In this document: positions 3,901 to 10,982 of the stretch, in pieces
Position numbering within the stretch: position 1 is the first letter of the stretch
Layout: every line of letters begins with the position of its first letter
Assembly (NCBI GenBank): GCA_024654165.1
Contig: JANLIP010000075.1
Location: 1-11,712 of the forward strand
Reading direction: 5' to 3'
DNA: 11,712 nt
Origin: Candidatus Kaiserbacteria bacterium
Lineage (GTDB): Bacteria; Patescibacteriota; Minisyncoccia; Phycocordibacterales; UBA2100
Position numbers and translations under genes: made by a program
Notes under the pieces: generated by a model
Database searches by the model: none
What the model was told of the DNA's origin: nothing
The model's input: the letters and a program-made list of their open reading frames with translations, nothing else

Positions 3901-4143
3901 ATGCAAACAGTACAAAAAGTCCAGAGGGTAACAAGCAAAGGGCAGATTACGCTGCCTGTTTCTTGGCGCAGATTGACTGGCGCACGCATGATTACCCTCG
4001 TCGAAAAAGGCGACCGCATCGAAATCGCTCCAACACGGCTTCACGATGAAAATGAGTACACCGTGTTTGATGCGATACGAGATAATAAGGGAAAAGGAAT
4101 TAAGGCGTCTGATTTGGTGAAAATTCTGCAGAAGCTCAAATAG
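3901..4143 (+). CDS. AbrB/MazE-family (SpoVT-AbrB) antitoxin
   Basis: An 80-aa protein whose first half (about 5-45) is a SpoVT-AbrB DNA-binding fold: VQRVTSKGQITLPVSWRRL, then a short loop and MITLVEKGDRIEIAP. The family forms swapped dimers that bind operator DNA. The C-terminal part (46-80), with a lysine-rich helix ending ASDLVKILQKLK, is where antitoxins of this type contact their toxin. A RelE-like toxin follows 18 nt after the stop (ATG at 4162), so the pair is probably one operon, repressed by this protein. What is seen is the fold signature and gene pairing; toxin neutralisation is inferred. Confidence 0.8.
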   Translation: MQTVQKVQRVTSKGQITLPVSWRRLTGARMITLVEKGDRIEIAPTRLHDENEYTVFDAIRDNKGKGIKASDLVKILQKLK

Positions 4144-4161
4144 CTTTTGGGAAAAAGAGAC

Positions 4162-4401
4162 ATGGACGAGATAGCGAAACTCTTTAGAAAGCTTAGCGAG
4201 AAAGAACGCGATTTGCTTTCCGAAATATCAGGAAAACTTAATAAAGGAGAAACCGCCGGCCTTAAGATTAAAAAGTTGTCCGGCTCCGACTTTTATCGTT
4301 TGCGCAAGGGCGTTTTTCGAATCATCTTTCACCGCGAAAATGGGGCGCCGGTCATTGACTCAATCAGATTGAAAAATGAGAAAACATATCGCGGTTTCTA
4401 A
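4162..4401 (+). CDS. RelE/ParE-superfamily toxin
   Basis: A 79-aa basic protein. Two N-terminal helices (about 1-28) are followed by a beta-rich C-terminal part with the RelE/ParE-like pattern: KIKKLSGSDFYRLRKG, VFRIIFHRE and VIDSIRLKNEKTYRGF. The conserved arginines of YRLR and FRIIF and a terminal K/R-x-x-x-Y motif are present. RelE members cleave mRNA on the ribosome and ParE members poison gyrase; the sequence alone does not decide between them. The preferred start is ATG 4162; an in-frame TTG at 4147 would add five residues. It lies directly downstream of the AbrB-type antitoxin. RelE-like toxins usually pair with RelB, Phd or HTH antitoxins, so this partner is unusual. Confidence 0.75.
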   Translation: MDEIAKLFRKLSEKERDLLSEISGKLNKGETAGLKIKKLSGSDFYRLRKGVFRIIFHRENGAPVIDSIRLKNEKTYRGF

Positions 4402-5061: not shown

Positions 5062-5158
5062 AACCCAGTGAAATCCTGCGCTTCGCGCAGGAGCCGCAAC
5101 GCGGCTATTTCACGGGTTGTAAGATTTTCTAAACTCATTACATTCGTTAACAAAATCT
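5062..5158 (+). promoter_or_regulatory. Structured leader RNA, copy 1 (three-way junction plus start-codon hairpin)
   Basis: P1: AACCC and GTGAAAT (5062-5066, 5068-5074, A5067 bulged) pair with ATTTCAC and GGGTT (5107-5113, 5114-5118). Inside it P2: CCTGCGC/GCGCAGG (5075-5081, 5085-5091) with a UUC loop, and P3: GCCGC/GCGGC (5093-5097, 5101-5105) with an AAC loop. After P1, P4: AGATTTT/AAAATCT (5122-5128, 5152-5158) with a 23-nt loop. The ATG of the next gene is at 5162, 3 nt after P4, with no Shine-Dalgarno. It aligns without gaps to copy 2 (offset 4511) with compensatory changes in P2 (T-A to C-G) and P4 (two pairs). It matches no riboswitch family known to me. Role in control of initiation is inferred. 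Confidence 0.75.
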
Positions 5159-5161
5159 AAC

Positions 5162-5782
5162 ATGATAATTACCTATCACGAAGGTTCATGCGTGCGTATA
5201 AGCGCCGGGGATACCACCCTTGTGCTCGGGCCGGTGTCAAAGCAATCCAAGAATTTCAAGCCGACCAATTTTGGCGCGGATGTGGCGTTCGTCCCCCTCA
5301 ATCACGCGGATATGAACGGCGTGGAAGAGGCCGGCCGCGGAGAGAGGGTGCCGTTTGCCGTCACGGGTCCGGGAGAATACGAGGTAAAGGATGTAACGGT
5401 AAGCGGGTTCGGGACAAAATCAAAATACGAGGGGAGCGAAAAAATAAATACGATTTACTCGCTGATTTTTGACGGCCTCTCCGTGCTATATATGGGCGCG
5501 CTAGGCGACACCAATCTTCCGGCAGATGTTTTGGAAATGGATTCTCCGGACATCTTAATAATTCCAGTCGGAGGAAACGGCGCGCTCTCTCCTGCAGAAG
5601 CGCAAAAACTTTCCGTGAAGCTTGAGGCAAAGATAATCATTCCAATTCTTTATGACGACAAAACTCTAAGGCAATTCTTGAAAGAGGCCGGCGAAGAGGG
5701 AACCAAGCCAGTTGAAAAACTCACCCTGAAACCGCGCGATGTGGCAGGGAAGGAAAATGAAGTGGTAGTATTAAGCTCGTAG
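5162..5782 (+). CDS. Metallo-beta-lactamase-fold protein (COG2220/UlaG-like) lacking metal ligands
   Basis: A 206-aa protein with the spacing and landmarks of the COG2220 family: an N-terminal MIITYHEGSCVRI strand pair, GPGEYEVKDV at 69-78 (PGEYEVKG in relatives), INTIYSLIFDGLSVLYMG at 95-112, SPDILIIPVGGNGALSPAEA at 127-146 and KIIIPILYD at 156-164. The zinc ligands are mostly gone: the usual HxHxDH reads LNHADMNG (46-53), the HLGDLG-type aspartate region reads YMGALGD (110-116), and the late histidine in PMHY is Leu162. It is therefore probably a non-hydrolytic, structural or binding paralogue, or depends on other residues. It follows structured leader copy 1 and precedes a small membrane protein and gyrA. 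Confidence 0.75.
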   Translation: MIITYHEGSCVRISAGDTTLVLGPVSKQSKNFKPTNFGADVAFVPLNHADMNGVEEAGRGERVPFAVTGPGEYEVKDVTVSGFGTKSKYEGSEKINTIYSLIFDGLSVLYMGALGDTNLPADVLEMDSPDILIIPVGGNGALSPAEAQKLSVKLEAKIIIPILYDDKTLRQFLKEAGEEGTKPVEKLTLKPRDVAGKENEVVVLSS

Positions 5783-8949: not shown

Positions 8950-9555
8950 ATGCAAATTGTTCATAAGCAGAAAATAAATACGGCAAAACAAGAGCCACGC
9001 CAAAGTGTGGTCACCGGGTTTGCGCATCCCGCGCGCAACGTCGTAGCGATTGGCATAACCCCCGGAATGAAGGTTGCCGATTTCGGCTCTGGCAGCGGAG
9101 CATATGTGCTTGCTATAGCAAAAACGCTTTGCAACAGCGGGCACGTCTATGCCATAGACGTACAGCGCGATCTTTTGCAGAGAATAAAAAATGAGGCGCA
9201 CAAGGGCGGACTCAAGAATGTTGAGGTGTTATGGGGGGATTTGGAGAGGCCGGGCGGATCTAAGATTGCAGACGGCGCATTGGATGTCGTTTTAATCTCA
9301 AACCTGCTGTTTCAGGCAACGGAGAAGGGCGCGGTACTGGAAGAGGCGATGCGGATATTAAAACCCCAAGGACGCCTAGTTATAATAGACTGGGCCGAAT
9401 CGTTTGGGGGGACCGGCCCCCAGCCGGAGGATGTCGTCAAGAAAGAAACTGCTCTTTCTCTTGCTATGAAAGCCGGATTTAAGCTTGAAAAAGAATTTTC
9501 CGCTGGAGCGCATCACTATGGCTTAGTATTTAGAAAAATAACGAGTGAAGCATGA
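8950..9555 (+). CDS. Class I SAM-dependent methyltransferase
   Basis: A 201-aa Rossmann-fold methyltransferase of the Methyltransf_11/UbiE-like type. Motif I is VADFGSGSGAYVL (42-54), which binds S-adenosylmethionine; the ribose-binding acidic residue is Asp70 in VYAIDVQ; WGDLE (95-99) is the adenine-contacting region; DVVLISNLLF (112-121) is motif IV; ILKPQGRLVIIDW (136-148) is the post-motif hairpin. The substrate cannot be told from the sequence. The first 25 residues (with QEPRQSVVTGFAHPARN) resemble the substrate-facing N-terminus of related small methyltransferases but carry no diagnostic motif. A TTGTTT-N16-GATAAT promoter (8905-8932) is possible, with a start near 8939. It is followed by structured leader copy 2, which would also lie in its 3' UTR on readthrough. 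Confidence 0.85.
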   Translation: MQIVHKQKINTAKQEPRQSVVTGFAHPARNVVAIGITPGMKVADFGSGSGAYVLAIAKTLCNSGHVYAIDVQRDLLQRIKNEAHKGGLKNVEVLWGDLERPGGSKIADGALDVVLISNLLFQATEKGAVLEEAMRILKPQGRLVIIDWAESFGGTGPQPEDVVKKETALSLAMKAGFKLEKEFSAGAHHYGLVFRKITSEA

Positions 9556-9572
9556 ACGACTATATTTTTCTT

Positions 9573-9669
9573 AACCCAGTGAAATCCCGCGCTGCGCGCG
9601 GGAGCCGCAAAGCGGCTATTTCACCGGGTGTAAGAGATTCTAAACTCGTTTTACTCGTTAATAATCTCT
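9573..9669 (+). promoter_or_regulatory. Structured leader RNA, copy 2
   Basis: Same length and fold as copy 1. P1: AACCC/GTGAAAT (9573-9577, 9579-9585) with ATTTCAC (9618-9624) and GGGT (9626-9629), an A-C mismatch replacing the bulge. P2: CCCGCGC/GCGCGGG (9586-9592, 9596-9602), loop UGC. P3: GCCGC/GCGGC (9604-9608, 9612-9616), loop AAA. P4: AGAGATT/AATCTCT (9633-9639, 9663-9669), loop of 23 nt containing ACTCGTT twice. The solute-binding protein ATG is at 9675, 5 nt after P4, with no Shine-Dalgarno. A -10-like TATATT at 9561-9566 predicts a start exactly at the first base of P1. Confidence 0.75.
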
Positions 9670-9674
9670 AACAC

Positions 9675-10982
9675 ATGAAAACCCTTTCCATTTTTCAGCT
9701 AGTTCTGCTTGGTACTTTTGGCACGTTTGGCATTATAGGCGTACTTGTTTTTGCTCTCGCGGTGGGCGGAAACAGCAACAGTACTGCGGGGAAGGTGGAG
9801 ATATGGGGAATTCTGAACGGCAAGGCGATATCCGAAGTCCTGGCTCAAGCCGGAGACACGGATCCGAATCTGAAAGAGGTTGGTTACCTTGAGAAAGATC
9901 CTGCTACCTATGAATCGGAGCTTACCAACTCCCTTGCGGTAGGCGCCGGACCGGATTTAATCCTGATGCGCCAAGATTATGTAGTAGAGGACGCTGGCAA
10001 GACGATTCCTTTTCCAACATCAGACATCAGCGGTGCAAAATTCCAGTCATTGTATATAGATGCCGGAACTCCGTATTATTCAAGCACTGCCGGAGCTGTC
10101 GCATTGCCGATCTTGGCTGACCCTCTGGTTCTATACTGGAATCGCGACATTCTAAGCGCAGGGGGCGTGGCAAAACCCCCTGCATTTTGGGATGAAGTGC
10201 TGAACATTGCACAGAACATAAAAATCAATGCGCATACCGATTCTGGTTCAATAAGCAAAAGCGCAATCGCGCTCGGAGAGTATGCCAATGTCGCCAACGC
10301 AAAAGATATTTTGAGCACGATTATTCTGCAGTCCGGAGGCGCGATAACAGCAAATGACAATACAGGAAGATTAGTTGCCTCGCTTTCGCCAGGATATGGA
10401 ACAGGGGGCCTGGGGGTTGAAACCGCGCTTCGATTCTTTACGCAATTTGCCGACCCTTCCAAGAGCTACTATTCGTGGAACCGAAGCCTCAAGAATTCTC
10501 GGCAGGCTTTCTCCGCGGGAGACCTCGCGCTTTATATAGGATTTGCGAGCGAGAATGCGCAGATAGCGAGCATGAATCCGAATTTGAATTACGGCGTTGC
10601 ACCAATGATTCAAATACGCGAGGGCGGGAAGACGGTAAACGCCGCTCGCGTGTATGCGCTCGCCGTTTCTAGAACGGCGAAGAATCCTACAGGCGCCGCA
10701 ATAGTTGCCAAGCTCATTTCTTCTCCGGCCATAAGCAAGAATTTATCAACGGCGCTCGGCATGTCTTCAGCTCTGCGCGACGTGCTCGCAATGCCCGCAG
10801 ACGGCAATTATCTTCTTTTCAACCAGCAGACCCTCATAGCGCGCTCTTGGATTGATCCCGATTCGGCGAAGACATCAGATATCTTTCGCGGTATGATTGA
10901 ACGCGTTTCCACCGGCTCAATGCAGATTTCCGATTCTATCCAACGCGCCAATGATGAGCTGGGAAGGATTTTAGAAAGATGA
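9675..10982 (+). CDS. Membrane-anchored family 1 solute-binding-like protein
   Basis: A 435-aa protein with the layout of ABC-transporter family 1 (sugar-type) binding proteins. A membrane segment at about 8-30 is followed by VEIWGILN (first beta strand), ATYESELTNSLAVGAGPDLILM (78-99, the typical GxGPDLI hinge), ILADPLVLYWNRDILSAGGV (146-165), PPAFWDEVLNIAQNI (168-182), and later AFSAGDLALYIGFASENAQI (about 278-297) and YALAVSRTAKNPTGAAIVAKLISS (about 327-350). There is no lipobox cysteine, so it is probably held by an uncleaved helix. No permease or ATPase gene follows. Its stop overlaps the ATG of a pilin-like gene (ATGA), so translation is coupled and the protein may serve a surface apparatus rather than a classical importer. 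The ligand is unknown. Confidence 0.78.
   Translation: MKTLSIFQLVLLGTFGTFGIIGVLVFALAVGGNSNSTAGKVEIWGILNGKAISEVLAQAGDTDPNLKEVGYLEKDPATYESELTNSLAVGAGPDLILMRQDYVVEDAGKTIPFPTSDISGAKFQSLYIDAGTPYYSSTAGAVALPILADPLVLYWNRDILSAGGVAKPPAFWDEVLNIAQNIKINAHTDSGSISKSAIALGEYANVANAKDILSTIILQSGGAITANDNTGRLVASLSPGYGTGGLGVETALRFFTQFADPSKSYYSWNRSLKNSRQAFSAGDLALYIGFASENAQIASMNPNLNYGVAPMIQIREGGKTVNAARVYALAVSRTAKNPTGAAIVAKLISSPAISKNLSTALGMSSALRDVLAMPADGNYLLFNQQTLIARSWIDPDSAKTSDIFRGMIERVSTGSMQISDSIQRANDELGRILER

Follow-up and report, generated by a model that had tools for sequence, protein, structure and literature searches.

Structured repeats before start codons in Candidatus Kaiserbacteria are probably members of a mobile intergenic family linked to GIY-YIG genes

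The stretch of DNA analysed here, referred to as the window, spans 11,712 nt of contig JANLIP010000075.1 from a Candidatus Kaiserbacteria bacterium and contains two similar sequences that fold into hairpins and end almost directly at a start codon. This arrangement raises the question of whether the two sequences belong to a cis-regulatory RNA family or to a mobile repeat with RNA-like structure. A first-pass annotation made from the letters alone had offered both readings and put the leader RNA in its title. The two copies (5062-5162 and 9573-9673) have the claimed spacing of 4511 and align without gaps at 85% identity. The proposed fold, in which an outer stem P1 encloses hairpins P2 and P3 and is followed by hairpin P4, is present in both: folding of the + strand is far better than in dinucleotide shuffles (z -6.4 for copy 1 and -5.9 for copy 2), as is that of the - strand (z -5.7 and -7.0), with none of 200 shuffles as good in any case. 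All three compensatory changes described between the copies (5077-5089/9588-9600, 5125-5155/9636-9666 and 5126-5154/9637-9665) are found in the sequence.

Both copies lie on the + strand. Copy 1 begins with the P1 5′ arm (AACCCAGTGAAAT; 5062-5074), which resembles the arms of the type-i copies described below, and continues with P2 (5075-5091), P3 (5092-5106), both supported by folding and by P2/P3 pairing in relatives, and the P1 3′ arm (5107-5118), assigned from sequence. Its right-hand hairpin P4 (5120-5160) scores 68.1 bits with our model R1, in which the copy is included, and lies 1 nt 5′ of the ATG at 5162, which opens a 206-aa gene of the beta-lactamase superfamily (Lactamase_B_3; 5162-5782; PF13483, E 5.4e-21). 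Copy 2 follows a methyltransferase gene (8950-9555; PF13847) whose end, with the stop codon TGA (9553-9555), is located within a left hairpin (TTTAGAAAAATA...TATATTTTTCTTAA; 9529-9574) that a hairpin scan of the copies revealed and the earlier annotation had missed; a recognisable left hairpin is absent from copy 1. The P1 arms of copy 2 (9573-9585 and 9618-9629) were identified by folding and an arm scan, and P2 (9586-9602) and P3 (9603-9617) by folding and by their pairing in relatives. P4 of this copy (9631-9671; 64.4 bits, the copy again being part of R1) lies 3 nt 5′ of the ATG at 9675, the start of a 435-aa extracellular solute-binding protein (9675-10982; PF13416, E 4.1e-14). The outermost P4 pair is U-A in both copies (5120-5160 and 9631-9671); distances to the ATG of 3 and 5 nt, as previously given, hold if P4 stops two bases earlier. 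A Shine-Dalgarno sequence is indeed absent between P4 and the ATG, although this does not set element-bearing genes apart, as element-free nusG-rplK gaps read by eye also have none. Elsewhere in the window, a degenerate P4-like sequence occupies 976-1016 on the - strand, directly 5′ of a - strand ORF that starts with ATG at 975; the part of this sequence at 986-1016 is 71% complementary to copy 2, and the P4-like sequence falls below R1 reporting at E<=0.01. Two small + strand ORFs (3901-4401) resemble, by eye, an AbrB-type antitoxin and a RelE-type toxin.

The window copies belong to a larger repeat family. BLAST with copy 1 found four places in its own genome and, at E<=1, mostly weak matches in 46 of 60 genomes, with P4 as the most strongly shared part of the element. 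Alignment A2 and model R1 comprise 27 of 28 P4 sequences, 23 of them distinct; L048, which has an insertion, was omitted. In A2, where the P4 structure was drawn from the same sequences as those tested for covariation, 95.7% of P4 cells are paired (85.5% in shuffles), 33 cells are changed on both sides (8.3 in shuffles) and the covariation score is 0.289 (0.101 in shuffles), values reached by none of 500 shuffles. Changes on both sides affect seven of the 14 P4 pairs, a number reached by one of 500 shuffles, and further pair types, of which there are nine, are not above shuffles (150 of 500). With the pairing read by hand, P4 contains non-pairs that are invariant or nearly so: at two places UAA faces UAA, and at another UC faces UC. 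Pairing in P2 and P3 is retained despite widely differing sequences: of the 287 cells in 24 distinct ORF-less copies of type i, 278 are Watson-Crick, the others being three G-U, three A-C and three of other kinds. This set was reduced from 27 rows by omitting two reverse-orientation rows of elements already counted and one repeated insert, and includes two copies from other families of the order. Covariation in relatives, a check named by the first-pass annotation, is observed for P4 by comparison with shuffles and for P2/P3 by the retained pairing, in both cases uncorrected for phylogeny.

Of the 52 genomes of the genus, 33 have R1 matches at E<=0.01, and the number per genome ranges from 0 to 59: G071 has 59, G017 has 29, G072 has 22 and the own genome has 17. 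These counts include some left hairpins and are possibly low, because filters were stricter and at most 125 candidates were scored per genome. Across the phylum, six of 286 genomes, the own genome included, have matches at E<=0.001. The exact P4 pattern occurs in six stretches, two from Ca. Kaiserbacteria, one from a Parcubacteria group bacterium and three from two MAGs. Up to E 10, Rfam yielded only two matches, which are at chance level and do not lie in either copy, in agreement with the earlier remark that no known riboswitch or leader could be recognised here. No description of a start-codon hairpin element of this kind was found in the titles and abstract openings of the literature searched.

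The element has a modular architecture, in which a left hairpin, an exchangeable central stem and P4 follow one another in this order. The central stem of type i has ACCC[AT]GTKAAAT together with P2 and P3, and the other types have ACCCAGCACCTTT, CCCCAATTTTG and ACCCGCCTAAATTT. Among 97 copies, 61 have a left hairpin scoring >=14 within 5 nt of the centre and 95 have a central stem above a low cut-off, counts that include some spurious hairpins, as the centre scores <18 in eight of the 97 rows and is missing in two. Where a copy with a left hairpin also has an upstream ORF, the stop codon lies in the left hairpin or <=6 nt from it in 43 of 60 copies; in the remaining 17, other sequence separates the two. 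Central stems are also found reversed (L094 4784 compared with L099 16568), and for central stems as well as for the outer arms of P4 either orientation is seen (L094 4784, L099 16568, L154 and L166), as if the palindromes had turned round in place. A promoter-like hexamer pair (at least nine of 12 positions) is present in 13 of 39 distinct long-loop centres, with 4.0 expected from block shuffles, which is a weak hint of promoters.

The position of P4 relative to genes is strict. In 81 sequences chosen for containing matches, R1 gives 128 matches, which were sorted into 103 right-hand P4 hairpins in the genus, nine left hairpins of other copies and 16 matches in other lineages. All 103 right-hand hairpins are followed, at -1 to +13 nt, by an ATG that opens an ORF (>=40 aa, or >=15 aa if nearer than 6 nt); the distance is -1 to +4 nt in 98 and exactly +1 in 78. 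Random positions or both orientations, which had been named as refuting outcomes, were therefore not what we found: right-hand genus copies lie at a start codon, in one orientation. The genes that follow, named by eye from their translations, are varied core genes, many of them ribosomal, while others include ftsZ, rpoA, tuf, groES and DNA ligase. In L095 (G071), 12 R1 matches on one strand are spread over about 12 kb along a ribosomal protein operon. Outside the genus, the 16 matches are more loosely placed, as judged by eye. In G342 (L107-L111), P4-like hairpins lie shortly 5′ of Shine-Dalgarno-like, G-rich stretches and a start codon. By eye, P4-like hairpins in G195, from another patescibacterial lineage (L114 560 and 814), are situated directly 5′ of tRNA-like sequence.

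Seven copies contain a GIY-YIG gene within the central arms (L166, L178, L215, L216, L106, L095 and L226), and all seven of these ORFs match PF01541 in Pfam (E 3e-17 to 3.6e-13). L166 (G070) and L178 (G014), both of type i, have an 89-aa ORF within the central stem, and the final codons of this ORF extend across the P1 3′ arm and reach into P4. L215 and L216 are built like L166, with a GIY-YIG gene that ends early in P4, and L095 (type ii arms) and L226 (type iii/iv-like arms) have a GIY-YIG ORF inside and then P4. L106, the exception among the seven, is a tandem of a type-i GIY-YIG copy and, after it, a copy that lacks the ORF; in the other six, P4 coincides with the end of the GIY-YIG gene or follows it closely. 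Three kinds of centre (type i, type ii and type iii/iv-like) therefore have a GIY-YIG counterpart between like arms. Most of these copies were met or selected because P4 or rplK was there. Among 20 further loci, L215 and L216 were picked for a P4 adjoining a GIY-YIG match, and L226 also has a P4; in L222, P4 lies about 2 kb from the GIY-YIG match, and none of 30 loci taken from the GIY-YIG search has a P4.

PF01541 is found in all 52 genomes of the genus, those without P4 matches included, and these hits include unrelated nucleases. A flanking inverted repeat (score >=12) is present at 19 of 52 GIY-YIG-like ORFs, or at 15 of 46 when L166, L178, L215, L216, L106 and L095 are left out, compared with six of 300 other ORFs, the control ORFs being longer (100-220 aa) and some ORF starts in the scan being misplaced by the pattern (L095 was given as 50 aa). 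In the own genome, a GIY-YIG ORF located between two genes (L241; G000:C12, about 1200-1520, - strand) has, by eye, a different inverted repeat of about 20 nt. In copy 1 of the window, one frame running through the P1 3′ arm and the start of P4 (5106-5132) reads TAT TTC ACG GGT TGT AAG ATT TTC TAA and resembles the final GIY-YIG codons of full-length type-i relatives. This frame, Y-F-T-G-C-K-x-F-stop, is kept in both window copies (5106-5132 and 9617-9643); it is implied by their common P1 and P4 sequence and so provides no independent proof. A conserved leader peptide was considered for the ORF of copy 2 that extends from ATG 9552 to TAA 9669-9671 and was rejected, as the frame is shifted elsewhere by 3- or 4-nt loops.

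The region upstream of rplK allows the element to be compared at one orthologous site. rplK is present in 50 of the 52 genomes, and its upstream region was read in 31 (32 rows, with the own genome represented twice). By eye, six have an ORF-less element, two a GIY-YIG-bearing element, one (the own genome) a remnant and 22 none; the upstream gene is not nusG in about eight of these 22. Different centres occupy this one site: L154, which is ORF-less, agrees with the GIY-YIG-bearing L166 in its P1 arms and closely resembles it in the left hairpin, whereas the outer arms of P4 are swapped between the two, as after hairpin inversion. The remnant 5′ of rplK in the own genome (L093 and L167; G000:C5), TTTAGAAAAATAAAAAATCTAACATG, looks like a collapsed element that has retained its outer ends and lost the middle. 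A pattern for this collapsed form has two matches in the 52 genomes, the rplK remnant itself and one in G071 with a different sequence, and the remnant is the only candidate for an emptied site. On an rplK tree that is poorly resolved (5 of 28 inner branches starred), presence of the element needs seven changes, compared with an average of 8.0 for shuffled labels, 121 of 500 shuffles being as low; because the changes are no fewer than in many label shuffles, we regard the element as patchy at rplK. Some inheritance is nevertheless likely, given that within one fork of seven rows (G072, G013, G071, G023, the own genome, G021 and G030) five carry the element, the remnant included. In L168, L170, L172 and L174, TTGAAA-like and TATAGT-like hexamers were seen by eye to end a few nucleotides 5′ of the rplK ATG, which suggests leaderless mRNAs in these relatives.

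Of the two readings first offered, the titular cis-regulatory RNA fits these observations less well and the mobile repeat better, given the copy numbers in the genus, the varied downstream genes, the exchangeable central stems, the patchy orthologous site and the endonuclease-bearing copies. We consider it probable that the window copies represent the ORF-less form of a mobile intergenic family of Ca. Kaiserbacteria-like Patescibacteria that is built on inverted repeats and linked to GIY-YIG genes. As in MITE-like elements, copies are dispersed within a genome (17 in the own genome, up to 59), an orthologous site may be occupied or free (8 of 31 rplK sites plus one remnant), and larger gene-bearing relatives share the same ends (the seven GIY-YIG copies, whose autonomy is putative). 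A complete element comprises the left hairpin, the central inverted repeat formed by the P1 arms and the right-hand hairpin P4, and often fills the whole gap from a stop codon to the next ATG. In some copies the central loop contains a small GIY-YIG endonuclease gene, its last codons in type i placed in the P1 3′ arm and early P4; in ORF-less copies, short hairpins such as P2 and P3 of the window, or other inserts, take its place. The endonuclease might cut element-free sites, after which gene conversion would spread the element, and ORF-less copies would either be spread in trans or represent decay products. The palindrome arms may be kept complementary at the DNA level, for example by template switching, and P4, which offers a stop codon in each reading frame and is immediately followed by an AUG, may also support translation re-initiation. 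Several points speak against this reading. GIY-YIG-bearing copies are few, and GIY-YIG modules could have invaded hairpin elements that already existed; P4 is placed more tightly at the ATG than plain mobility requires; no movement, target duplication or cleavage came to light; copy 1 lacks a recognisable left hairpin, and 17 of 60 copies have other sequence between the preceding stop codon and that hairpin; and the mispairs of the left hairpins, described next, favour G-U.

A fold that is kept as mRNA should tolerate G-U over A-C mispairs on the mRNA strand. In P4, 44 A-C and five G-U cells were counted among 1609 cells in 118 distinct rows; 20 of the 44 fall on one pair, and the excess can come partly from this pair and from the conserved 5′ half. 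The eight P4 pairs judged free of the conserved-half constraint have 16 A-C and four G-U cells. The central arms show 71 A-C against 53 G-U, and the left hairpins 44 A-C against 67 G-U, all of these counts being uncorrected for relatedness. Across P4, central arms, left hairpins and P2/P3, there is no consistent G-U excess on the mRNA strand. A folded bottom strand, as in attC sites, was also considered and rejected, because the A-C bias of P4 is not clearly common to the central arms and P2/P3; for the same reason we claim neither strand. DNA template switching of the arms, or a protein that reads the hairpin DNA, would fit this pattern.

Among the alternatives, the one that survives best, although we consider it rather unlikely, is a cis-acting translational leader, in which P4 at the AUG, with a UAA in every frame, would couple termination to re-initiation or gate access to the start codon. 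On this view, the leader would have spread by recombination and be retained for its function at gene starts, and the ribosomal and other core genes that carry it might form a regulon. The adjoining ATG and single orientation of all 103 right-hand copies, the many ribosomal protein genes downstream, the hairpins near Shine-Dalgarno-like stretches in G342, the strong pairing covariation and the promoter-like hexamers in long-loop centres are all compatible with such a leader. Against it, many genomes manage without the element (22 of 31 rplK sites lack it, and 19 of 52 genomes have no R1 match, in counts that are possibly low), G-U is not preferred over A-C among the mRNA-strand mispairs of P4, and genes outside ribosome synthesis carry the element as well. 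Given the invariable start-codon placement and orientation of the right-hand copies, an effect of P4 on translation of the next gene is possible also for a mobile element.

A riboswitch-like RNA family sensing a ligand or protein would account for the stable conserved fold, the invariant or nearly invariant internal loops of P4 and the lack of an Rfam match, yet the sequence of the central domain is free and exchangeable, the downstream genes are varied, presence is patchy and a consistent G-U signature is missing. We rejected this candidate in view of the absence of an Rfam match, the varied genes and a P4 without mRNA-strand signature; a ligand switch is unlikely, and we give the sensing family as a whole very little weight. 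Equally improbable is an element of the REPIN kind, mobilised by a Y1 transposase (RAYT), despite the two inverted hairpins per element and the occurrence of PF01797 in 45 of 52 genomes. No RAYT flanked by the palindrome of our element was found among 21 loci read by eye, over 260 nt on each side where possible; most of these RAYT-like genes have short palindromes of their own, and only L034 shows the element nearby, beyond the palindrome belonging to its RAYT. Moreover, G064 (88% complete) and G013 (69% complete) have 13 and 12 P4 matches, respectively, and no PF01797 match. The own palindromes of the RAYT-like genes (L034 and L133-L152) mostly lie on one or both sides of the gene. Integron-like gene cassettes with P4 as the recombination site, to which the one-orientation array of L095 with an ATG after each hairpin might point, can hardly be entertained and were dropped, since the genes along that array are the core genes of a ribosomal protein operon.

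The mobile, GIY-YIG-linked family that we favour has partial counterparts among known systems. Seg and Mob of T-even phages are free-standing (intron-less) homing endonuclease genes located between conserved genes. Our elements resemble them in having a small GIY-YIG gene between conserved genes and a patchy presence; in contrast, our family is found in core operons of bacteria, its gene is enclosed by an inverted repeat with additional hairpins on either side, the outer structure recurs at many different sites, numerous copies lack the ORF, and cleavage and homing are putative. With REPIN/RAYT systems they share paired inverted palindromes and dispersal, while the PF01797 search of 52 genomes and the reading of 21 loci found no RAYT link. 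The BOX element of pneumococcus is a MITE-like repeat that is likewise short, dispersed and palindromic. To our knowledge, Correia/NEMIS, RPE and BOX repeats show no preference for the bases immediately 5′ of start codons and have no link to GIY-YIG genes. Correia/NEMIS and RPE repeats (PMC2229807) are similarly short, dispersed, palindromic and folded when transcribed, and some carry promoters. Repetitive hairpins and patchy invasion of intergenic regions are also features of RHE in sponge mitochondrial DNA (PMC2800124) and of mitochondrial double-hairpin elements; unlike these organellar elements, our family is strictly oriented at start codons and has endonuclease-bearing versions. Closer in host, CPR rRNA genes contain GIY-YIG-bearing insertions unlike introns of group I or group II, as well as short ORF-less insertions of unknown kind, according to PMC11270868, whose authors doubt homing as the means by which the GIY-YIG insertions spread. 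The likeness to our family lies in the CPR hosts and in the coexistence of GIY-YIG-bearing and short ORF-less forms; those insertions are situated inside rRNA genes, and the portions of PMC11270868 examined do not describe start-codon hairpin elements.

We propose, with less assurance than the mobile reading itself and as a tentative suggestion, that these repeats constitute a new class of mobile element: an inverted-repeat GIY-YIG module with two flanking hairpins that sits in the stop-to-start gaps of core operons and spreads by exchange of its central module, while P4 doubles as the translation-start context of essential genes, so that some gene starts in the ribosomal operon of these reduced genomes would consist of selfish DNA. 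Compensatory changes between copies, usually read as proof of a functional RNA, may also arise in palindromes of mobile DNA, and comparison of G-U with A-C mispairs helps to separate the two. Although the genomes of Patescibacteria are very small and leave little room between genes, a structured repeat is found here at the start codons of essential genes. If its spread is driven by the endonuclease, the family shows a way for selfish elements to survive genome reduction, namely by occupying the gap from one stop codon to the next start.
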